From: Candidatus Promineifilum breve
GTDB lineage: Bacteria > Chloroflexota > Anaerolineae > Promineifilales > Promineifilaceae
Assembly: GCF_900066015.1 (NCBI RefSeq)
Contig: NZ_LN890655.1
Coordinates: 3,636,726 to 3,700,725, forward strand
Direction: 5' to 3'
DNA length: 64,000 nt
Positions within the stretch are counted from its first letter, which is position 1, and each line of letters starts with the position of its first letter. The notes under the pieces are model-generated. The model had not been told where the DNA came from, did no database searches, and saw only the letters and a program-made list of their open reading frames with translations. This document shows positions 52,618-63,095 of this stretch, piece after piece. A program made the position numbers and the translations under genes.

Positions 52618-53169
52618 CTAGAAGCGCAAGAACGTAGCCGTTAGCATCAACCCAGAAGCTAACGGCGCGCCATTCGATATTTCCCCCACCTGCGTCATCA
52701 AAAAATCGGCAATAGCCCACAGGCCAAAGCAACCACCGACCAGGAGCAGGATCGCCAGAATGATGGCAAACACCAGGCAACTCCGGCCGCAGCCGAAACT
52801 GCCGGCGGGCAGCGTGCGCACTTTGGAGCCGGGGGCGTTGGGGATGGGCCGGGCGGCGGCCGGGGTGGGGGAGGGCGATTCGGCCGGCATGGTGACGACC
52901 CGCGGCCGGCGTGAGCGCTCGCGGGGAAGTTGGTTCCTGGGTCGCGGCACGGCAGGGTCGCCAAGGCCCGGCGCGCCCACCACTCCCGTGCCGGTGCAGC
53001 CGTAGGCGGTGCATTTGTTGTCGTTGGCCTGCCAGCAATGGACGTGGTGGCGGCTGCCGTCGGCCGGGCAGACGACGATCTCATCCCCGGCCACGAACGC
53101 CTGCTTGCAGAGCGCGCACGTCTGCTCCAGGAAGACCGAGGTTTCGTCGATGCGGTGGGCGCGAATCAT
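52618..53169 (-). CDS. RING-like (Prok-RING) protein with C-terminal membrane anchor
   Basis: A 183-residue protein. The treble-clef/RING-like module uses CALC (18-21), C34, RHHVHCW (41-46), C53 and C58. A Pro/Arg-rich linker (about 70-125) leads to a membrane helix near 131-153 (CLVFAIILAILLLVGGCFG), so the RING would face the cytoplasm if the N-terminus is inside. In prokaryotic ubiquitin-like operons such modules are candidate E3 ligases that bind E2. It ends the conjugation gene series. The ATG at 53169 is chosen by the start of conserved sequence. Confidence 0.78.
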   Translation of the reverse strand: MIRAHRIDETSVFLEQTCALCKQAFVAGDEIVVCPADGSRHHVHCWQANDNKCTAYGCTGTGVVGAPGLGDPAVPRPRNQLPRERSRRPRVVTMPAESPSPTPAAARPIPNAPGSKVRTLPAGSFGCGRSCLVFAIILAILLLVGGCFGLWAIADFLMTQVGEISNGAPLASGLMLTATFLRF

Positions 53170-53186
53170 GGCGTCAAACAATAACA

Positions 53187-53256
53187 AGACCTGACAGGTG
53201 GGCGGCGATAGGTCTGATACGAGTCAAAGCGATTTAGCCGCCCACCTGTCAGGTCT
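53187..53256. repeat. AGACCTGACAGGT hairpin between the two RING-like genes
   Basis: Perfect 20-base arms (53187-53206 and 53237-53256) around a 30-base centre. The core AGACCTGACAGGT recurs at 56749-56799. Confidence 0.92.
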
Positions 53257-53267
53257 AATGAATAGAA

Positions 53268-53792
53268 CTAGGGGTTGATTTTGATCTGATCCAGCAGCCA
53301 GCGCCAGAAGCGCTCGAAGAGGGTCATGTTGCGCACCTGCCGCCGCTGTTCTTCCTTCAGCCGCCGGTTCTGGGCGCTGGGGGAGGGGCCGCCGTTGGCC
53401 GAGGGCGCGGGCAGGTCGGTATAGCGAACCTTCAGTACCGGCCGGGTGTCCTGGCCGTGAACGTGGAACTTGTCGCTGCCGCAACCGAGCACGGCGCATT
53501 TGCCGCCGCTGCGATCCCAGCACGCTTTATGATAGAGCGTGTCGCACTTGTCGCAGATGACGGGCACGAGGGCCGCGCCGTCGGTGTGTTCCTCGACGGC
53601 GTTGCCGCATATCGGGCACGACAGGCTCAGCTGGTTGGCCTCGGTAATGTCGCTCGCGGTGATCCGGATCGAGGGTTGTTCTTGTGCGTCCATGGGTCGA
53701 AAATCGAAAGCGCCAACCCGACCGTTGTGGCGGGCGATATCTTCGCCGGTCGATGTGCCGGGTCGCGCTTCCAAGCTTTGATTATACAACAT
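53268..53792 (-). CDS. RING-like (Prok-RING) protein, soluble paralogue
   Basis: A 174-residue protein with a complete cross-brace candidate: CPIC (59-62), CDKC (80-83), YHKAC (87-91), C99 and C104. This is the same spacing style as the neighbouring RING-like protein, so the two are paralogues. The C-terminus is basic and ends in an amphipathic helix rich in Trp/Phe (FERFWRWLLDQI, 159-170), which might bind membrane. It is a candidate E3 or adaptor. The ATG at 53792 has AGAGGG 7 bases upstream; a later ATG (53693) is possible. Confidence 0.78.
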   Translation of the reverse strand: MLYNQSLEARPGTSTGEDIARHNGRVGAFDFRPMDAQEQPSIRITASDITEANQLSLSCPICGNAVEEHTDGAALVPVICDKCDTLYHKACWDRSGGKCAVLGCGSDKFHVHGQDTRPVLKVRYTDLPAPSANGGPSPSAQNRRLKEEQRRQVRNMTLFERFWRWLLDQIKINP

Positions 53793-53832
53793 TTTCAGAC
53801 CCTCTTCCCATCTCAATCATATTCTCAGATAG

Positions 53833-54888
53833 CTACCATGATCCGCCGGCCCAGTCGGGCCATTGGAAATCATAGCGGTTGACCTTCGTCTTCTGCCGGT
53901 TCCAGCAGAAAAAGCCGCTGGTGCGCGCCCGGGGGTCGAGCACGTAGGCCACGTGCCAGATCTGGGTGAAAAAGTTCTGGTGAATGAACAAGTCCATGCC
54001 CGACAGGAAGATGCCGAATCCCGGATGGGTGTGATACCAGCCGACCATGACCGCGCTCTCGTCGGGGTAGCGCTCCCAGAGGGTGTCGTTCATATAGCGC
54101 CAGCTTTCCGGCGTATAGGTGACGCTGGCCCCGTGCATGACGGTGTGTTTGGCGACGATGCTGTCGATGACGTGGACAATGTAGCGGCCGTCGGGCTGCT
54201 TCTCCGGCCGCCGGCCGATCATCACCCCGGCTACCTCGCGATCGAGGCTGCTCAGGGCGTGGGCCTGCATGGCCCGCAAGGCTGACTCATCGAGCAGGAT
54301 GTCTACCGCCGCGCCGCCGGATTCGCTGAGGGGCAGTCGGTCGCCGGCCACGCGCACCCGCGCTTCGCTGGGGATGATGGTGGGGCGGTCGGCCGGTGCT
54401 TCGGGCGCGATTTCCGGCGTGATGGTGACTGGCTCGGCCGCCGGCTCGGTTGGAACGGGCGCGGCCGGTTCCGGCGCGGGCTCGGCCGGGGCGTCGGGTA
54501 TGGCCTCGGCGGCCACCGATTGTTCGGCCATGACGGGCGATGGCTGCGGGGCGGCGGCCGAGTCGAGGATGATCAGGTGGTTGGCCCAATCCTCAACCTC
54601 ATCGACCGCCTGGCCCGCTTTGTCCAGGGCCATGACGCGGATGCCGATCTCGGCCGCGTCGCGCAGTTCCAGCAGGCTGATCGCCTCGTAGGTGTCCCAG
54701 ACTTCGGCTTCCAGCGTCCGGCCATAGGCGGCCAGCTCGGCCAGCGTGCAGTCGGACAGCGGCTTGGCGGTTTGGCCGACAGTCAGTTGATCGGCCGGGG
54801 CCAGGGTGACGATGGCGGTGGCCGTGTCCGGTTTGCCCGGCAGCGACAAGCTGATCTGGGCCACGTAGGTGGTGGTTGATTCGGTCAT
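53833..54888 (-). CDS. JAB/JAMM metallopeptidase (Mov34/MPN family), soluble
   Basis: A 351-residue protein. The N-terminal 110 residues form an unknown domain, then an Ala/Pro/Glu linker (about 112-170), then the JAMM domain. Metal-site residues are complete: Glu218, His286 and His288 (HTHPG), Ser296 and Asp299 in the H-x-H-x7-S-x2-D pattern. Such enzymes cleave isopeptide bonds or trim ubiquitin-like tails, so it should reverse or mature the conjugates of this locus. The ATG lies 2 bases after the second JAMM gene's stop. Confidence 0.9.
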   Translation of the reverse strand: MTESTTTYVAQISLSLPGKPDTATAIVTLAPADQLTVGQTAKPLSDCTLAELAAYGRTLEAEVWDTYEAISLLELRDAAEIGIRVMALDKAGQAVDEVEDWANHLIILDSAAAPQPSPVMAEQSVAAEAIPDAPAEPAPEPAAPVPTEPAAEPVTITPEIAPEAPADRPTIIPSEARVRVAGDRLPLSESGGAAVDILLDESALRAMQAHALSSLDREVAGVMIGRRPEKQPDGRYIVHVIDSIVAKHTVMHGASVTYTPESWRYMNDTLWERYPDESAVMVGWYHTHPGFGIFLSGMDLFIHQNFFTQIWHVAYVLDPRARTSGFFCWNRQKTKVNRYDFQWPDWAGGSW

Positions 54889-54890
54889 AG

Positions 54891-56141
54891 TCAGGGTTGG
54901 GCCGTGGCCGGCGACAGGCTAATGCTGACGGCGCAGGGGCTGCTGTCGGCCAAACGGATATTATTGAGGTCAACCGGCGACAGGCGCAATTCGTAGTCGC
55001 CGGGCGGCAAGTCGGTCGTGACCCAATCGGCCAGCGGCCCCAGCCGCGTATCGGCTCGCAGGCGGTCGATGAGCAGCCACGTCTCGCTGCCCGCCGGGCG
55101 ATATTCGGTCTGATAGCGGCGCGCGTCGGGATATTCGGCCGTGCCGATGAGTTGGATAGTCGCCCCGGCGACGTAGGCCTGACCGTTCAGCGGTACCAGG
55201 ATGCGCAGGCGCGGGTCGGGGCAGCTCTGGGCGTTGCTCGCGCTCAGCGAGACCTGGGCCAGATTAAGGAGTGTCGTCTCCAGCAGTTCCACCCGCCGCA
55301 TCAGAGGCAGAACGCCGCCGACGACCAAAAAAAAAGACAGCAACAACGCCGCGGCCGACGCCGCCAGCCCCAATTCGCGCCCCGAAAAGCGCGGCCGGCC
55401 ATTGCGGGCCAGCACGACGCGGCTATCGGCCTCGGCCATCTGTTGGGCTTCGTAGGGCTTATCCCAGACCGTCGTGGCGACGGCGCGCCAGGGAATCACC
55501 GTCTGCGGCTGGCGCTCCGGCAATTCGTAGAAACCGGCCAGTGGCGACAGCGCGCCGCCGACCCAGCCGAAAAACGCCGCCTCGTCGCGCAGCGGATCGA
55601 CCACCAGGCCGACGTGCCACGGTTGGGTGAAGGCCGCGGAGTGGACAACCACGTCGTCGCCGGAGTAGAACACGCCGAGGTCGGGATGGGTATGGAACCA
55701 GCCGATGATGTCGAGGTTGGCGTAGTGGGCGGCGCGGTCGCGGTGGAGGCTCGACCAGGAATCGGCCGAGAAGGTGAAATGCACCGGCCCGTGGTCGGAA
55801 CTGGTGGCCGGCAGCGCGGCCTTCACCTCGACCACCACGCCGCTTTTGTAGCGATAAACCTGGCCCAGCAGCGCGCCGCCCAACTCGACGTTGGTGTTGC
55901 TGCGGCTGTGGGCGATGATTTGCAGCAGCGCCGTCTGGTGCATCAGCACCAGCGGCTGGCCGTCGCCGGGAACCTGGCCGTGGTGCAGCCATTGGGCCGG
56001 CGGCGCGGGCAGTTGGCGCAGCGGCAAAGCGGCCAACGCCTGGCGATGCGCGGCCACGACGGCGGTTAGCGCTTCATCGCGCGCCGTTTCGCCCGGCGGC
56101 AGCGGTGCGCCCTGACTAACCGAACTTGATGCCGAGGTCAT
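54891..56141 (-). CDS. JAB/JAMM metallopeptidase with membrane anchor and extracytoplasmic domain
   Basis: A 416-residue protein. The JAMM domain (about 65-205) has Glu86, His150, His152, Ser160 and Asp163, all ligands intact. A membrane helix spans about 257-280 (LGLAASAAALLLSFFLVVGGVL). The last 110 residues form a beta-rich domain with Ig/FN3-like rhythm (RILVPLNGQAYVAGATIQLIGTA), expected outside. The peptidase would thus work at the inner face of the membrane with an outside sensor or anchor. The ATG overlaps the E2 gene's end by 26 bases. Confidence 0.88.
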   Translation of the reverse strand: MTSASSSVSQGAPLPPGETARDEALTAVVAAHRQALAALPLRQLPAPPAQWLHHGQVPGDGQPLVLMHQTALLQIIAHSRSNTNVELGGALLGQVYRYKSGVVVEVKAALPATSSDHGPVHFTFSADSWSSLHRDRAAHYANLDIIGWFHTHPDLGVFYSGDDVVVHSAAFTQPWHVGLVVDPLRDEAAFFGWVGGALSPLAGFYELPERQPQTVIPWRAVATTVWDKPYEAQQMAEADSRVVLARNGRPRFSGRELGLAASAAALLLSFFLVVGGVLPLMRRVELLETTLLNLAQVSLSASNAQSCPDPRLRILVPLNGQAYVAGATIQLIGTAEYPDARRYQTEYRPAGSETWLLIDRLRADTRLGPLADWVTTDLPPGDYELRLSPVDLNNIRLADSSPCAVSISLSPATAQP

Positions 56142-56649
56142 CGGACTCCTCGTCGCGGATGACGATCAGGTCGGCCACCGACTGACCTTTCAGTTCGCGG
56201 CGGTCGATGGGGAATAACGATTTGCGCTGGATGGCCCAGGCCGCGGCCTTGGAGTTCATCGGGTCGCGCGGTTCGTAGTTCTTGTACTGCACCATTTCGC
56301 CCAGGGTCAGGAGCAACTCATCCAGCGTCTTGGCCGGCCACCACGCGCCGATGCACACCGCCCCGGTGATGTGGATGTTGGGGTGGAAGATGGGCGTGAT
56401 CCACTTCAGCTGGGGTTGTTTCAGAGGATACTCGGCGTGCAGGTAGATGGTCACCTCGTGCTGCTCACGATAGATGGGCTGGTTGGCCCCGGAGATGCCC
56501 TCGACGCCACGGCAGGTATAGCGGATCAGGTACTTCTCGGGCGGTTCGCCCTCGGTCCTGACGATATGGATGAACTCGCTCCGATTCGCCAGATCGCGCA
56601 CGCGCTGGTAGTCGTTGCGCAACCGGGTTTCACGAATGTCGAAAGACAT
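56116..56649 (-). CDS. E2 ubiquitin-conjugating enzyme-like protein
   Basis: A 177-residue UBC-fold protein. It has YPLKQPQLKWITPIFHPN, with the HPN motif at 89-91, the probable catalytic Cys99 (GAVCIG) and the downstream WWPAKTLDELLLTLGEM helix, followed by EPRDPMNSKAAA, which parallels the eukaryotic PxDPxNxxAA segment. It should accept the ubiquitin-like protein from the E1 as a thioester. Compared with many bacterial E2-like proteins it is strikingly close to eukaryotic E2 architecture. The ATG at 56649 has GAGG 7 bases upstream. Confidence 0.92.
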   Translation of the reverse strand: MSFDIRETRLRNDYQRVRDLANRSEFIHIVRTEGEPPEKYLIRYTCRGVEGISGANQPIYREQHEVTIYLHAEYPLKQPQLKWITPIFHPNIHITGAVCIGAWWPAKTLDELLLTLGEMVQYKNYEPRDPMNSKAAAWAIQRKSLFPIDRRELKGQSVADLIVIRDEESDDLGIKFG

Positions 56650-56813: not shown

Positions 56814-57080
56814 TCAGCCGGCGGTGACTTCGGGGAACAGGCTGAGAATGTCGTCTTCCTTGACGCTGGCGTCCCGCAACGATTCGTCGTCGCCGAGCCG
56901 CTTACCGGACGTGCGGTGATCCAAGCGGTAGGTGATCGGATTCGCGCCCTGCGTCGTCGGCAGACCCATCTTGCTCACCAGAGCGGGGATCAGCCGGCGC
57001 ATCGGCACATCGTCCGGCAACTCGACCGGGGTCTTCTTGGACCCGGTGGGATCGTAAATGATTACCTTTGTACTCGCCAT
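56814..57080 (-). CDS. Ubiquitin-like protein (Ubl)
   Basis: An 88-residue beta-grasp protein, starting MASTKVIIYDPTG and ending LFPEVTAG. The strand/helix order (VIIYD, a helix near 27-38, YRLDHRTSGKRLG, DDILSLFPEV) matches ubiquitin-like folds of the YukD/small Ubl type. The C-terminus is a single Ala-Gly with no tail beyond it, so it could be activated without processing. It lies between the E1 and E2 genes. Family membership is inferred from fold pattern and context, not from a search. Confidence 0.85.
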   Translation of the reverse strand: MASTKVIIYDPTGSKKTPVELPDDVPMRRLIPALVSKMGLPTTQGANPITYRLDHRTSGKRLGDDESLRDASVKEDDILSLFPEVTAG

Positions 57081-57150
57081 CTTATTAATAGCCTCCATGC
57101 TAATATTCGTAACACATTACGCAAATAGATTAAAACGGTTGCAGTCGGGC

Positions 57151-58332
57151 TTAGGCGAACTGCAAAAAGGTCGCCTTGTCGCCCGTCAACTCGTAGTACA
57201 CGCGCTCGCCGCCGTTGCGCGCCCGGATGATGCCCAGTGGCGGCACGTCAACGCCGGCCAGCGTGCGGTCGAGGAACTCCTCCTCGCCGCTGATGCGATG
57301 GGTCAGGCGCATCTCGCGCTTGGCCCCGCAGTTGGGGCAGACGGCCGCGTCTTCGTATAGACGGGCCATCCGCTGGAATATCGGCTCATTCTGACCACAC
57401 GCGCCGCAGTCCATCGACACGACGAGTTCGCTGTCGAACTCCAGCACGGCCTCCGGGCCGAGCCGTTCGCGGGCCGTCGCCAGCAGTCCGGCCAGGGTTG
57501 TGCCCTCGGCCGTGGCCTCCGGCAACTCAACGATCGGCTCCAGCCGGGAGTGGCTCATGCAAAACTCCTTGACCGGATATTCGGTGATGTAAATGTCGTT
57601 GGTCAGGCCGTTGATCATCAGCGCCTTGCCCGGCTGCACTTCCATATCGTGCAGCAGCTTCAGCGCTTCCTGCGTCTGGAAGGCGGCCACGATCGACGCG
57701 CTGGTCGGCGTCGTCGGCACCTTGCCCATCAGTATATCCTGTCGCGCCAATAGCGGGCAGGAGTAGCGCAGATTGATGATTTGGTAGTCCAGATCGGTCA
57801 GGGTGCACTCGTAACACGCCCCCTCGCCGGGCCGGAAGACGCGCACGATGCCCATCAACTCCTGGATGGCCCCATCGACCCACGGCCGGTCGACCGCCCA
57901 ACTGAAGCGGTTGATCGACAGGCGCGCCTCGCGGTTGTCGAGGCAGCCGATGATGGCATCGACGTGGCGAAACACGCCCAGCCCCATCTCGAAATTGATG
58001 TCGCCGTGCCACGCCTTGACCTTCACGTCGGGGTTGATGGCCTTGGCCGCCTCGGCCGCGGCATCGACCTTGCGCCGGCCGCGGTCGCCGGCGCGAAACA
58101 GCACCGAGCGGCTCAGGTTGCTGTCCTCGATGGTGTCGAAGTCGGCGATCAGGAGGTTGCCGATGCCCATCAGGGTCAGGTTCTTGATGACCTCGTTGCC
58201 CAGCGCCCCGGCCCCGATGACCAGCACCGTGGCGTTGCGCACGACTTCCTGCTGCCACCAACTGATGTAGCCGAAGGTATGATACCGATCGCTGTCGGGG
58301 TCGGTGATGACAATGGTTTCCGCTTCTGTCAT
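57151..58332 (-). CDS. E1-like ubiquitin-activating enzyme (ThiF/MoeB/UBA family)
   Basis: A 393-residue adenylating enzyme. The nucleotide loop GAGALGNE is at 40-47, the ribose-binding acid in ADFDTIEDSNLSR at 63-75, and CLDN at 130-133. CYEC (173-176) is the first zinc half-site, and Cys192 (SCPLL) falls where UBA3/SAE2-type E1s carry the thioester cysteine. PTTPTSASIVAAFQTQEALK closes the core. The last 100 residues add CGAC (309-312) and CPNC (332-335), a zinc ribbon, which may complete the zinc site or bind E2/Ubl. It activates the Ubl encoded 70 bases downstream. Confidence 0.92.
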   Translation of the reverse strand: MTEAETIVITDPDSDRYHTFGYISWWQQEVVRNATVLVIGAGALGNEVIKNLTLMGIGNLLIADFDTIEDSNLSRSVLFRAGDRGRRKVDAAAEAAKAINPDVKVKAWHGDINFEMGLGVFRHVDAIIGCLDNREARLSINRFSWAVDRPWVDGAIQELMGIVRVFRPGEGACYECTLTDLDYQIINLRYSCPLLARQDILMGKVPTTPTSASIVAAFQTQEALKLLHDMEVQPGKALMINGLTNDIYITEYPVKEFCMSHSRLEPIVELPEATAEGTTLAGLLATARERLGPEAVLEFDSELVVSMDCGACGQNEPIFQRMARLYEDAAVCPNCGAKREMRLTHRISGEEEFLDRTLAGVDVPPLGIIRARNGGERVYYELTGDKATFLQFA

Positions 58333-58348
58333 AATTACCCTGTGAAAA

Positions 58349-58457
58349 TTACGAATTACGAATTACGAATTACGAATGAAGAACGTTGTTCGCGGGCGGG
58401 CGATTCTTTTTTACTGACCACAGACCACTGACCACAGACCACTACCCACTGTCCACT
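58349..58457. repeat. AATTACG tandem repeats and CAGTGGT-family repeats
   Basis: Four perfect copies of the 7-base unit AATTACG (58349-58376), then CTGACCACAGACCACTGACCAC units (58414-58457). They separate the CAP gene from the E1 gene. Confidence 0.88.
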
Positions 58458-59103
58458 AAACCGGCTTTGTCAGCGTCGCGATAAAATTCTGGGTCACGAT
58501 CAATTGGCCTTCGGGCGCGTAGGCCACGCCGATGCCCACGTGGCTCCAGACTGGATTCAGGATATTGCCGCGATGGTTGCTCACGCGGCGCGGCTGGTTC
58601 ATAAAGGCGGCGTGCACTTCGCGCACGCCGCGCTCGCCGCGGCTGGCCGGGCCATAGACCACGCCGATATTCTCGCCGCAGGCCAGATAGCTGATGCCGT
58701 CGCGGTTCAGCCGCTGGGCCACGGTGAACCCTTCCGGCGTGGTGTGGGCCACGTAGCGGCGCTCAAGCATGTCGGCCGCGTGGCGGCGGGCCGTGGCCGC
58801 CAGCGCCGGATGCCAGCGCAGCGGCCCGCGCCCCATCCAGCCGGGAATAAACTCCGCCCGCGCCTCGTTGACCAGTTGCAACACCACTTGTTCCAGCGCG
58901 CCCACGACCTCTTCGCCGGCCGGTTCGAAGGCGGCCACGTCCTCGGGCGTGATCAGCAGCAGGTGGCGTGTCGGGGTCGCCGGCGTGGGCGGCGCGTCGG
59001 GTATCTCCTCCGGCCGGATCGCCAGCACCGGCGGGGCCGTCACCCGCCCGTTTTGCGCCTCGATGTCGGCCGTGGTCAGCCGCAGCCGTTCCTCGTCGGT
59101 CAT
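58456..59103 (-). CDS. CAP-domain protein (SCP/PR1/Tpx-1 family), no signal peptide
   Basis: A 215-residue protein with a CAP domain from about 72 to 213. Landmarks are LRWHPALAATARRHAADM near 95-112, GENIG and HRGNILNPVWSHVGIGVA near 176-193, including the conserved His/Glu residues of CAP. Bacterial CAP proteins are usually secreted; this one begins MTDEERLRLTTADIEA with no signal sequence, which suits a cytoplasmic partner. It is 10 bases downstream of the preceding gene. Its role in the conjugation locus is unknown. Confidence 0.82.
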   Translation of the reverse strand: MTDEERLRLTTADIEAQNGRVTAPPVLAIRPEEIPDAPPTPATPTRHLLLITPEDVAAFEPAGEEVVGALEQVVLQLVNEARAEFIPGWMGRGPLRWHPALAATARRHAADMLERRYVAHTTPEGFTVAQRLNRDGISYLACGENIGVVYGPASRGERGVREVHAAFMNQPRRVSNHRGNILNPVWSHVGIGVAYAPEGQLIVTQNFIATLTKPV

Positions 59104-59113
59104 CGCGCAAGCC

Positions 59114-60340
59114 TCAGGCCTTCAGCGTGCGATAGAAGGGCAGATTGAAATGGGTACGGTCGGCGTTCAACGTGATCGACTTGCGCTCCACTTCGCCGCC
59201 GAAATCGCGCGGCCAGGTCACGTCCACGTCGTAGGTCAGGCCCGCGTCCACCTGCACCGGCAATTCACAGACAAACTCGCCGTCCTTGTTCGTGGTGCCA
59301 GCCACGTAGCGGCGAATACCGCGTGAACTGACCCGCACCTGTAGCCCGTAGAGGCCGGGGCCGTCGGGATGCTCCTGCACCACGACGTGGAGCTTGGTCG
59401 CCTTCATCGCTCCCCGACCGCGTCCCATGCGGCGGGCCGCGTCGGTGGCCCCGGCGGTGTTGGCCGCGGCCGTGGCGTTTGGCATCACGACGTTGGCTCT
59501 GGGGGCGGCCGGCGGGCGCGGGGCGGGGCGCTGGGTCGCCGGCTGGGCGGGCGGCTCCAGTTGCGAGGCGTCGATGCGCAACGGCGGCTGTGGCTGCGGC
59601 GCGGACGGCGCCGGCGGCGACAGATCGGCGTCGCTGATGCTGATCGGCTCCTCGCGTCGCGGGGTGGCCGGCGTCTCCACCTCGCCCGAAGAGAGTTGCA
59701 AGCCGGGCGTGTATTCCGGATAGCGTTCCGGCACGGGCGGGCGGAAGTAGGGCGGCAACGGCGCGATAGGCGCATCGGGGCGCATACTGTCCAGCGTCGG
59801 CGGGCCGGCGGCGGCGTGGGCCAGCTTGCGGCCGAGCTTGTCGCGCTCCGTGGCGCTGCGCTGCACTTCCTGGCGCACGTAGTAGGCCGCGCGCTTGAGC
59901 ACCTGCCCGGCCGGGCTATACGGGTCGGGCGGCGCGGCCGGATCGAGCCGGTCGAGCAGGAAGTCGCTGCGCCAGGCGTGGGCGGCCACGGCCAGCGCCA
60001 GCCACTCGGCCGAAGCCGGGGCGGCCGGCGCGCTGAGTCCGGCCGTAGCCGTCGCCAGCGCGGCGATCTCTTCCTTGTCCGCCAGCCCGCTCTCGCGCAA
60101 CAGGTCATAGAGCGCCAGGCGCATGCCCTGTTCCGATTCGAGCGCCTGGGCAAAGCTGTGGCGCGTCGGCTCGTCGAGCACGTTGGCCGCCAGCAGCATG
60201 GCCCGGGCGCGCGACTCGCTCAGCGGCTCGCCGCGCGGGTTCAGATCGCGGTTCAGCCATTCCAGCAGGCGGCCGGCAAAGGTGATAAGCTGCTCTTTGC
60301 CGGGCAGCGCCTGAATTTGCCTCTGGGCGGATTCGTGCAT
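59114..60340 (-). CDS. Protein with helical N-terminus and C-terminal transthyretin/Ig-like domain
   Basis: A 408-residue soluble protein I do not recognise as a whole. Residues 1-180 are helical and Ala/Leu-rich (LLEWLNRDLNPRGEPLSESRA, EIAALATATAGLS). Residues 185-300 are a Pro-rich linker. The last 95 residues form a beta-sandwich (LHVVVQEHPDGPGLYGLQVRV, VAGTTNKDGEFVCELP) like carboxypeptidase-regulatory or transthyretin-like modules. A strong GAGGAG site precedes the ATG at 60340. It lies between the dynamin-like and CAP genes. Confidence 0.7.
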   Translation of the reverse strand: MHESAQRQIQALPGKEQLITFAGRLLEWLNRDLNPRGEPLSESRARAMLLAANVLDEPTRHSFAQALESEQGMRLALYDLLRESGLADKEEIAALATATAGLSAPAAPASAEWLALAVAAHAWRSDFLLDRLDPAAPPDPYSPAGQVLKRAAYYVRQEVQRSATERDKLGRKLAHAAAGPPTLDSMRPDAPIAPLPPYFRPPVPERYPEYTPGLQLSSGEVETPATPRREEPISISDADLSPPAPSAPQPQPPLRIDASQLEPPAQPATQRPAPRPPAAPRANVVMPNATAAANTAGATDAARRMGRGRGAMKATKLHVVVQEHPDGPGLYGLQVRVSSRGIRRYVAGTTNKDGEFVCELPVQVDAGLTYDVDVTWPRDFGGEVERKSITLNADRTHFNLPFYRTLKA

Positions 60341-60356
60341 GGTGTGCTCCTCTAAG

Positions 60357-60440
60357 GCGACCACGGACGACGGACCACAGACACTTGCTTTTATGTGGCC
60401 TGTGGTCCGTCGGTCGTCTGTCGTCCGTGGTCCGTCGTCG
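60357..60440. repeat. GACCACGGACGACGGACC inverted repeat
   Basis: Units of GACGGACCACAGAC face GTGGTCCGTCGGTCGTC units around a CTTGCTTTTATGTGG centre, between the dynamin-like gene and the next gene. Confidence 0.8.
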
Positions 60441-60443
60441 CTC

Positions 60444-63095
60444 CTAGATCGCCAGCCCGGTCTCCAGATGATGCAGTCCGTCCCAGACGCGCATCAGTTC
60501 TTCCATGTCGGACACGGACTCCAGATCGGCCTCCAGCGCCTTGCGTAGTTCGGGCTTATGGAGGTTGCGATCGTGCTGGCGCAGCATGGGCTTGACCAGC
60601 AGGTTGTTGAAATCGCGCTCCGACTTGGTGGCTTCCAGCCAGTACAGGCGGCGCAGGCGCGGCAGCAGATCGTCATCGCTGAACAGATCATCGATGATGG
60701 CGGCGAAGATGCGGTTGACCTTGACGGCCACGTTGTCCAGCAGGTCGGCGTAGCTCGGCTCCAGCTCGGCCGCCGGGGCCGCGGGCCGGTTCTCGCCCAG
60801 GAAGCTGATGTCGATGTCGGGCAGCGTCTCGCCGCCGGAGGTATCGAGGATGTTGATCTCGATTGGCTCCTCGATTGCCGGGGCCGGGGCCTGGCCGCTG
60901 TTGTTCGAGGCGGCCATGACTTGCGGCATGGCCGCGGCGATCTCGCGGGCCACCCGTTCGGGGCCATAGAGGGCCACGTCGAGCAGGCGTTCGTTGGTCG
61001 GCAGGGCCAGTTCCTTTTCGCCGGCATCGAGGCGCGAGTGAACCGAGCGATCGGCCCGCATCAGTTCGTACATCGTGGCCTGCTGGCAGGTGTGGCGGAA
61101 GTTGCGGTTGACGCGATCCACCAGCGCCCGATAAGCGGCTTCCAGCGTCACGGCATTTTCCCCTTCGCCGGGGATGATGTAGCTGTATTCCTGCCCATAG
61201 GCGGCGCGCTCCACCCGGGAGTAAATCTCGTGCGCCTCCAGCGTGCGCTGCAACTCGGCGCCCATGATGTCGGCCGCTTCGGGCATGAACTTAGACACGG
61301 CGTCCTGCATCACCAGTTCCACCTGGAACAGGATGCGCTTGATGGGCACTTCAATGCCGCTCGTGCCCCAGATCAGGTTGTCATAGGTCACGTCGCGGCC
61401 GTCCCAATACTCGGTGCCGTAGTTCTCCAATAGCATCTCAACTTCGCGCTGCACGGCGTCCTGCACCATGCCCTTGATGCCGTTCAGCGTCGGCCGCAAC
61501 ATCTGGCGGAAGCGCTCGTCGCTGTTGGTGCGGCTGCTCAGCTCCAGCAAGGCGTTGTGGAAGGCGCGCGGCAGCTCCTTCTGTTGGCGGGTCAGCACGT
61601 TCTCGTAGCGCCGCTCCTGCAATTGCTCCCAACTGGTGGAGAAGGGCGGCTGGACGCCACGGGCGGCCAGTTGTTTCTCATAGTAGAAGCGCAGGGCTTG
61701 CAGGGCATTGCGGGTGCGGGTGGCCGCCTCGCGCAACTGGCTGCGGACGCGCTCGTGCTGAATGAAATGGATGAGGCTCTCGCGCAATAGCGGCACTTCG
61801 CTCAGCTTCAGCAGGGCCTCTTTCGTCTCCGGCTCCAGCGGGTCTTTGGTCGGAACCGTGCCCATCTGATCCTTGAAGACTTTCAGAATGCGCTCGGTCT
61901 CGCTGGCGAACTCGTGAGGCGCGTTTTCGGGGTCTTGCACGTAGAGGGCCGACGGGGCCATGACCAGGAAGTAGGGCCGGTTGTGGCCGCGATTGCTGTA
62001 GCGCTCCCAATAGTTGGGGGCGATGTAGCGGGTGACGTCCTTCACTTCCAGTTCTGCCTCGGGCAGGCCGGAGTTCAGGCGGTCGAACGCCTGGCGCACG
62101 TTGGCCCCGTTGACGGCCAGGAAGATCTTGGAAGCGGCTTCATCCAGGTCGCCGCCACTGAGGCCGAACAGGCGGTTCTCCTTGATCCAGTTGACGGCCG
62201 AGAGGGACTTCATCTCGTCCACGCGCTGGCGACCGGCATCGGTGACGAGCACGACCATGGCGTCCTCGCGCTTCATCTCTTCCAGGGTGATGGCCTCGTG
62301 CAGCCGCATCCCCGCGCCCAGACCGGGCACATCGACGATGCGCAGATAGCCGTTCATCAACAGGTTGGGCACGCCCGGCTTGGGGTGAACGCGGAAGGTG
62401 GCCGCCTTGATGAGCCGGATTTGGCGGCGGTCGCTGCCCTTGAAGCCGTCCTCGCGCAGATGCTTGAGCGATTCCTCGTTCTCCAGGGCCAGGTTGACCG
62501 GCGGCGGCGAACCAGCCTTGAACAGTTCCTTGTTATTCTCGTAGGAGTCGATGCAGTCGAGCAGGATTTCCAGGAATTCGTCCCGTTCGGTCTTGGCCTG
62601 ATCCTTGCGCGACTCTTGCAGCGCGGTGATGTCCTTGCGGGCCTGCTCGCGCTCGCCGCTGTTGGTGATGTCGAAGCCGTCGATCTCGGCCAACTGGCAC
62701 AGCCGGCGCACGCGCTCGGCGAATTCGTCCTTGCTCCAATAGTTGAGCACCAACGACTCGGCCTCGCCTTCGGCCGCCTGCTCGATGTAGACGATGGTGC
62801 CGGTGACGGCCGTGACCGCGCCGGTGGGCAGCAGGTTGCGGCCCAGCAGGGCGTTGATCAGCGTGCTCTTGCCCACGCCCGTGCCGCCGAAGAAGACCAG
62901 CGTATAAGTGCGCTGGGCCAAAATCTTCTGGGCTTCGTCAATGCTGAATTGCGCCTGGGGGACGGCCCGGATAAGATAATCGCGGGTGCGGTCGATGGTC
63001 TGTTGCAGATCGACCCATTGTTCGACCTGGGCCGGACTGATGAATGGCAGTTCCGCCAGGGACGTTCGTAAGGATTCGTTATCGTTTTTGCTCAT
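60444..63095 (-). CDS. Dynamin-like large GTPase
   Basis: An 883-residue GTPase. G1 is GGTGVGKST at 70-78, G2 probably the Thr in TAVTGTIVY near 95-103 and G3 DVPGLG at 255-260; a long insert separates G2 and G3. After about 430 the protein is predicted helical with heptad-like stretches, as in dynamin stalks. I see no membrane helix. Such proteins assemble on and remodel membranes. It is the first gene of the conjugation locus, with AAGGA 8 bases before the ATG. Subfamily is uncertain. Confidence 0.85.
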   Translation of the reverse strand: MSKNDNESLRTSLAELPFISPAQVEQWVDLQQTIDRTRDYLIRAVPQAQFSIDEAQKILAQRTYTLVFFGGTGVGKSTLINALLGRNLLPTGAVTAVTGTIVYIEQAAEGEAESLVLNYWSKDEFAERVRRLCQLAEIDGFDITNSGEREQARKDITALQESRKDQAKTERDEFLEILLDCIDSYENNKELFKAGSPPPVNLALENEESLKHLREDGFKGSDRRQIRLIKAATFRVHPKPGVPNLLMNGYLRIVDVPGLGAGMRLHEAITLEEMKREDAMVVLVTDAGRQRVDEMKSLSAVNWIKENRLFGLSGGDLDEAASKIFLAVNGANVRQAFDRLNSGLPEAELEVKDVTRYIAPNYWERYSNRGHNRPYFLVMAPSALYVQDPENAPHEFASETERILKVFKDQMGTVPTKDPLEPETKEALLKLSEVPLLRESLIHFIQHERVRSQLREAATRTRNALQALRFYYEKQLAARGVQPPFSTSWEQLQERRYENVLTRQQKELPRAFHNALLELSSRTNSDERFRQMLRPTLNGIKGMVQDAVQREVEMLLENYGTEYWDGRDVTYDNLIWGTSGIEVPIKRILFQVELVMQDAVSKFMPEAADIMGAELQRTLEAHEIYSRVERAAYGQEYSYIIPGEGENAVTLEAAYRALVDRVNRNFRHTCQQATMYELMRADRSVHSRLDAGEKELALPTNERLLDVALYGPERVAREIAAAMPQVMAASNNSGQAPAPAIEEPIEINILDTSGGETLPDIDISFLGENRPAAPAAELEPSYADLLDNVAVKVNRIFAAIIDDLFSDDDLLPRLRRLYWLEATKSERDFNNLLVKPMLRQHDRNLHKPELRKALEADLESVSDMEELMRVWDGLHHLETGLAI

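Follow-up and report, generated by a model that had tools for sequence, protein, structure and literature searches.

A probable membrane-anchored JAMM deconjugase in a ubiquitin-like conjugation operon of Candidatus Promineifilum breve

In the bacterial ubiquitin-like (Ubl) systems described here, removal of the tag seems to be linked with the cell envelope. We describe a JAMM metallopeptidase of Candidatus Promineifilum breve, JAMM1, that is probably a membrane-anchored and likely active deconjugase, encoded beside a soluble paralogue, JAMM2, in a Ubl operon; judged from sequence, membrane anchoring of the JAMMs of such operons recurs across phyla. The relevant features of the window, by which we mean the whole stretch of 64,000 nucleotides that was analysed, are as follows.

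54891..56141, minus strand: JAMM1 (P0001), JAMM/MPN+ metallopeptidase of 416 residues with a predicted membrane anchor; ATG start
55512..55967, minus strand: JAMM catalytic domain of JAMM1, residues ~59-210 (Pfam JAB/Prok-JAB, orthologue alignment, AF2)
55299..55373, minus strand: predicted TM helix of JAMM1, residues 257-281 (hydropathy, AF2, orthologue conservation)
54906..55229, minus strand: FN3-like beta-sandwich tail of JAMM1, predicted extracytoplasmic, residues ~305-412, with C307 and C403 (AF2, structure matches)
53833..54888, minus strand: JAMM2 (P0002), soluble JAMM with an N-terminal domain and a Pro/Ala-rich linker (Pfam, comparison with JAMM1)

The catalytic domain of JAMM1 scores above the Pfam cut-offs for JAMM/Prok-JAB (38.9 and 37.6 bits), is predicted confidently in an AF2 model of the full-length protein, and carries the JAMM/MPN+ motif (an upstream Glu, then H-x-H-x7-S-x2-D), with ligands E86, H150-x-H152, S160 and D163 that are invariant in 28 orthologues. 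JAMM2, 30% identical to JAMM1 over 151 residues, has the corresponding ligands E218, H286-x-H288, S296 and D299, and a membrane helix sought in it by sequence was not found; the claims of the first-pass annotation that both JAMMs keep every ligand and that the neighbour is a soluble paralogue thus hold. The closest PDB sequence match of JAMM1 is CSN5 (E 3e-10), and the ligand pattern is shared with the eukaryotic JAMM isopeptidases CSN5 and Rpn11. These are soluble subunits of large complexes, whereas JAMM1 has a TM helix and an FN3-like tail. The ligand set suggests that JAMM1 would function in deconjugation.

The hydrophobic segment at residues 257-281 agrees with the membrane helix that had been placed near 257-280 by the first-pass annotation. 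Its hydropathy is matched by 408 of 20,000 shuffles of the L/A-rich JAMM1 sequence, and with 2% of shuffles reaching that value the single sequence is only modest evidence for a TM helix. A TM segment nevertheless occupies the same position in 44 of 44 JAMM1 orthologues (38 tailed, 6 tail-less), counted where the contig reaches far enough, with 3 more that are cut by contig ends excluded. The six tail-less orthologues stop 1-8 residues past the segment, like tail anchors. AF2 places the segment within a helix at residues 255-302, ahead of which lies a disordered linker (230-253, pLDDT under 50). Net charge around the helix averages +0.97 before and +0.39 after it in the family, a bias too weak for the positive-inside test to serve as sole evidence of topology, and we dropped it in that role.

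Modelling of residues 285-416, proposed in the first-pass annotation as a check on an Ig/FN3-like tail of ~110 residues, yielded an eight-stranded beta-sandwich with a mean pLDDT of 85 (~93 in the core), and the full-length model likewise contains a confident beta domain at 306-412. The best structural matches of the tail are FN3-like modules of secreted bacterial proteins: the cellulosomal CbhA FN3-like module (VIA Z 10.9, rmsd 2.1 over 86 residues), the Ig domain of the bifunctional enzyme CelAly (Z 9.7) and an S-layer protein (Z 9.5). The tail of the window JAMM1 has no Pfam match, LysM included; 7 of 24 tail homologues match Big_7 (best E 7e-4), which is weak sequence support. C307 and C403 are the only cysteines of JAMM1, exactly two tail cysteines are found in 36 of 38 tailed orthologues, and the pair may form a disulfide. 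On a tree of E1, Ubl, E2 and JAMM the state of the tail changes at least three times; the constant feature of the JAMM1 family is the anchor, not the tail. The same tail domain also ends many unrelated Anaerolineae proteins with two membrane helices, an uncharacterised family (L038-L042), in which it usually follows a positively charged inter-helix loop and, in most cases, a P/T-rich linker, and again carries the Cys pair.

A profile search recovered related JAMM genes, many of them in Ubl operons, from Firmicutes, Armatimonadota, Victivallales, a Desulfonatronospira MAG, Bacteroidota and Lokiarchaeota. Many bacterial relatives have a JAMM domain that is followed by a membrane helix ~80-100 residues past H-x-H and then by a LysM domain above the Pfam cut-off, an arrangement with a strain-named host in Anoxynatronum buryatiense Su22 (L091). 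In operons L094, L095, L096 and L099 the anchored LysM-JAMM is accompanied by a soluble one, the RINGs of LysM-JAMM operons often have membrane helices, and their neighbours include a trypsin-like protease, an M48 protease and an FHA protein. No LysM tail was seen in Chloroflexota among 301 genomes sampled from the phylum, where the matches listed cover the JAMM domain only, and a literature search to which the 2011 work of Burroughs, Iyer and Aravind was external found no report of a JAMM-TM-LysM protein. In four of these operons a Trypsin_2 gene, whose product is probably secreted, lies between the first E2 and the Ubl (L094 3391-4350 and L095 7359-8297, called by Pfam; L096 4005-4922 and L099 1967-2932, called by similar start and position), and the same operons hold a second E2. 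Its presence suggests a theme of envelope quality control in the Ubl operons of Firmicutes and Armatimonadota.

Both JAMM1 and the LysM-tailed proteins are anchored with an outside domain, but the JAMM1 tail is without LysM and the two belong to different JAMM lineages. In the JAMM tree the window JAMM1 clade (100/99) is joined by Armatimonadota L096_8050 at 95/88, and the nearest outside relative of JAMM1 is a JAMM from Armatimonadota that is anchored and bears a TPR-like tail. The LysM clade (97/95) groups with the JAMM2 type at 83/86; we therefore rejected orthology between JAMM1 and the LysM-JAMMs, which the tree puts nearer the soluble type. It follows from the tree that an anchor plus an outside domain occurs on two JAMM lineages, whether by independent gain, loss or domain shuffling. 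The LysM-tailed proteins thus support the topology of JAMM1 as an analogy for placement, not as orthologous proof.

We infer an N-in/C-out orientation for JAMM1, with the active site inside and the tail outside, from the LysM analogues, a tail fold of secreted type, the paired cysteines in that tail and the fact that the JAMM domain has to reach cytoplasmic Ubl. The extracytoplasmic beta domain of the first-pass annotation accordingly gains support from LysM tails at the equivalent place in distant homologues, the invariant cysteines and the FN3-like fold, although FN3-like folds are found inside cells too. We give next to no weight to the alternative that the hydrophobic segment stays out of the membrane or that the tail is cytoplasmic: the shuffle result and the weak flanking charge bias would be in keeping with it, but it sits poorly with retention of the segment in every sufficiently complete orthologue, with the tail-anchor-like ends of the tail-less forms, with LysM at the equivalent position and with the paired cysteines.

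JAMM1 belongs to a co-directional minus-strand set that runs dynamin-like GTPase, P0009, CAP, E1, Ubl, E2, JAMM1, JAMM2, RINGa, RINGb, of which the members not listed above are these.

60444..63095, minus strand: dynamin-like GTPase (P0010), accessory, candidate substrate or effector (Pfam, neighbourhood)
59114..60364, minus strand: P0009, conserved accessory protein without an assigned family (neighbourhood conservation)
58456..59103, minus strand: CAP-domain protein (P0008), accessory, without an obvious signal peptide (Pfam, neighbourhood)
57151..58332, minus strand: E1 (P0007), ThiF/MoeB-type adenylating enzyme (Pfam, alignment)
56814..57098, minus strand: Ubl (P0006), YukD-type beta-grasp protein with C-terminal VTAG at the stop codon (Pfam, alignment)
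56116..56649, minus strand: E2 (P0005), UQ_con, with HPN at 89-91 and catalytic C99 (Pfam, alignment)
53268..53816, minus strand: RINGa (P0003), Prok-RING_1, candidate E3 (Pfam, ligand alignment)
52618..53187, minus strand: RINGb (P0004), Prok-RING_1 with a C-terminal membrane helix, candidate membrane E3 (Pfam, hydropathy)

Over 40 loci from a Promineifilum-like family within the Chloroflexota share this gene order; the closest named relatives by profile search are Promineifilum MAGs. The operon core is E1-Ubl-E2-JAMM1-JAMM2-RINGa-RINGb, within which the JAMM1 gene overlaps the E2 gene by 26 nt; the dynamin, P0009 and CAP genes are absent from some genera. Many family members have a dynamin-like GTPase gene upstream of E1, but in several others (L062, L065, L076) none was found within 10 kb. 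The cascade looks catalytically complete, with a Ubl ending in Gly linked to E1, E2, RING and JAMM genes. E1 C192, which is likely the catalytic Cys, the HPN and C99 of E2 and the terminal TAG of the Ubl are all conserved from the Promineifilum-like family to distant phyla. The eight Zn ligands of RINGa (C67 C70 C88 C91 H96 C99 C107 C112) are invariant within the family and follow the C4HC3 order reported for prokaryotic RINGs (PMC11354881). RINGb, like JAMM1, has a membrane helix (residues ~136-157, window ~52717-52782), present in the family members scanned, so that the candidate writer and the candidate eraser would both be located at the membrane.

Short acidic/hydrophobic motifs occur at flexible ends of operon proteins (LRLTTADIE, VLKVRYTDLP and DDLGIKF, in window 58456-60364, 53268-53816 and 56116-56649), and DDLDITL-like motifs at the termini of E1, E2 and JAMM in Firmicutes and Armatimonadota. 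They resemble SUMO-interacting motifs and may be docking sites for the Ubl. The motif DDLxIxL or hxhxxxDhP is enriched in operon proteins by Fisher test, with a pattern picked post hoc and orthologues that are not independent; a common short linear motif remains a lead.

Burroughs, Iyer and Aravind reportedly predicted, in 2011, bacterial RING-containing Ub systems made up of YukD-like Ubls, E1, E2, JAB and Prok-RING. The predicted systems have the same gene set as the operon described here (YukD-type Ubl, ThiF-type E1, UQ_con E2, JAB, Prok-RING_1); the FN3 tail of JAMM1 and the neighbouring dynamin and CAP genes are features of the Promineifilum-like family. Operons with an E1-E2-RING-JAMM gene set were thus already predicted, and the passages of PMC5654768 drawn on here mention complete ones in some bacteria; what this analysis would add is a conserved membrane anchor on the eraser, combined with outside domains of two unrelated kinds. 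According to the same passages, Caldiarchaeum subterraneum also has a complete E1-E2-RING cascade with a JAMM (E1/E2/srfp/Rpn11), but there a single JAMM lies beside the operon, no membrane anchor is mentioned, and the modifier is of ubiquitin type rather than YukD type (PMC5654768).

In vitro, the Caldiarchaeum JAMM (Rpn11) both trims pro-ubiquitin and removes conjugates, as those passages state (PMC5654768). JAMM1 might by that precedent be chiefly a processor of Ubl precursors, or a general membrane-protein protease, instead of a deconjugase, and a minority of family Ubls do carry 1-5 residues beyond TAG that would require trimming before activation (L012 233-616, L030 3264-3533, L036 964-1236 and L048 5736-6008). 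We consider this improbable, since in most family Ubls the stop codon directly follows TAG, which leaves nothing to process, and since trimming a soluble precursor requires no membrane anchor. The first-pass annotation gave the soluble paralogue the part of recycling Ubl; JAMM2 may recycle or mature it, with most Ubls of the family in no need of trimming. A lone JAMM gene with an intact motif was also found at L031 8043-8555 (G000 C2, ~96-100 kb), with a partial JAMM copy on the same second contig at L031 4292-4603; E1, E2 and Ubl genes had no match within 16 kb around them.

Experimentally studied bacterial Ubl systems have been linked mainly to anti-phage defence. The Bil and Bub operons, like the one in the window, unite a Ubl, E1, E2 and specific protease, and the portions of the sources used here, which regard them as immune or stress pathways, mention neither a RING pair nor a membrane-anchored JAMM (PMC12687455, PMC13373217). 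The resemblance would allow the operon to be a Bil-like anti-phage system, placed at the membrane for tagging phage-related or receptor proteins. Several observations make that very improbable: the operon is near-universal in the family with a stable gene order, unlike mobile defence loci; PADLOC matches for the window operon are to general JAB and E1-E2 models, plus a single weak one to BilD, and its proteins fall below the cut-off of the Bil/Bub-related NCBIfam 6A-MBL anti-phage model; and in Firmicutes, L091 and L092 lie among conserved housekeeping-type genes.

We think it reasonably likely that JAMM1 is a single-pass membrane zinc isopeptidase that edits local tags, with an outside domain that mainly positions it. 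E1 would adenylate the VTAG-ended Ubl and pass it to C99 of E2; conjugation would then be steered, on the inside of the membrane, by the RING proteins, of which one is itself membrane-anchored. The JAMM domain of JAMM1 would hang in the cytoplasm on a flexible linker of ~45 residues, from one helix spanning the cytoplasmic membrane to a disulfide-stabilised FN3-like domain outside. JAMM1 could then strip targets on or close to the membrane of their tag, as JAMM2 would those in the cytosol. The FN3-like domain may place or hold the enzyme in the envelope by binding surface polysaccharide or protein partners, a placing role that LysM probably fills for the corresponding JAMM elsewhere among the phyla. 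Substrates close to the membrane and a positioning role for the tail are what this arrangement suggests.

The first-pass annotation had instead proposed that the outside domain couples an envelope signal to Ubl removal, sensing a ligand or the state of the wall and allosterically switching the JAMM domain. Such a sensor would fit with the outward placement of two unrelated domains of binding type, the FN3-like one of JAMM1 and the LysM of other phyla, and with the continuation of the single helix into a stalk, but we judge it unlikely. Several lineages keep the anchor without the tail, so that the system can do without a sensing tail and positioning is favoured, and the disordered linker between helix and JAMM domain makes rigid transmission of a signal improbable. 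Holding JAMM1 at the envelope is the simpler reading.

More tentatively, and with the balance of probability against it, this positioned enzyme may belong to an ancient cross-phylum membrane Ubl system coupled to the wall, in which tags on membrane-associated proteins, the operon dynamin for example, would be written by an anchored RING and erased by an anchored JAMM, and wall-facing LysM or FN3 domains would set where or when they are erased. An operon that is stable throughout the family and encodes both a RING and a JAMM at the membrane points, together with the similar LysM layout in several other phyla, to envelope housekeeping or quality control. If an envelope role is true, the substrates of bacterial Ubl tagging would become directly testable at the membrane, and these systems would constitute a prokaryotic counterpart of the membrane-localised ubiquitin editing of eukaryotes.
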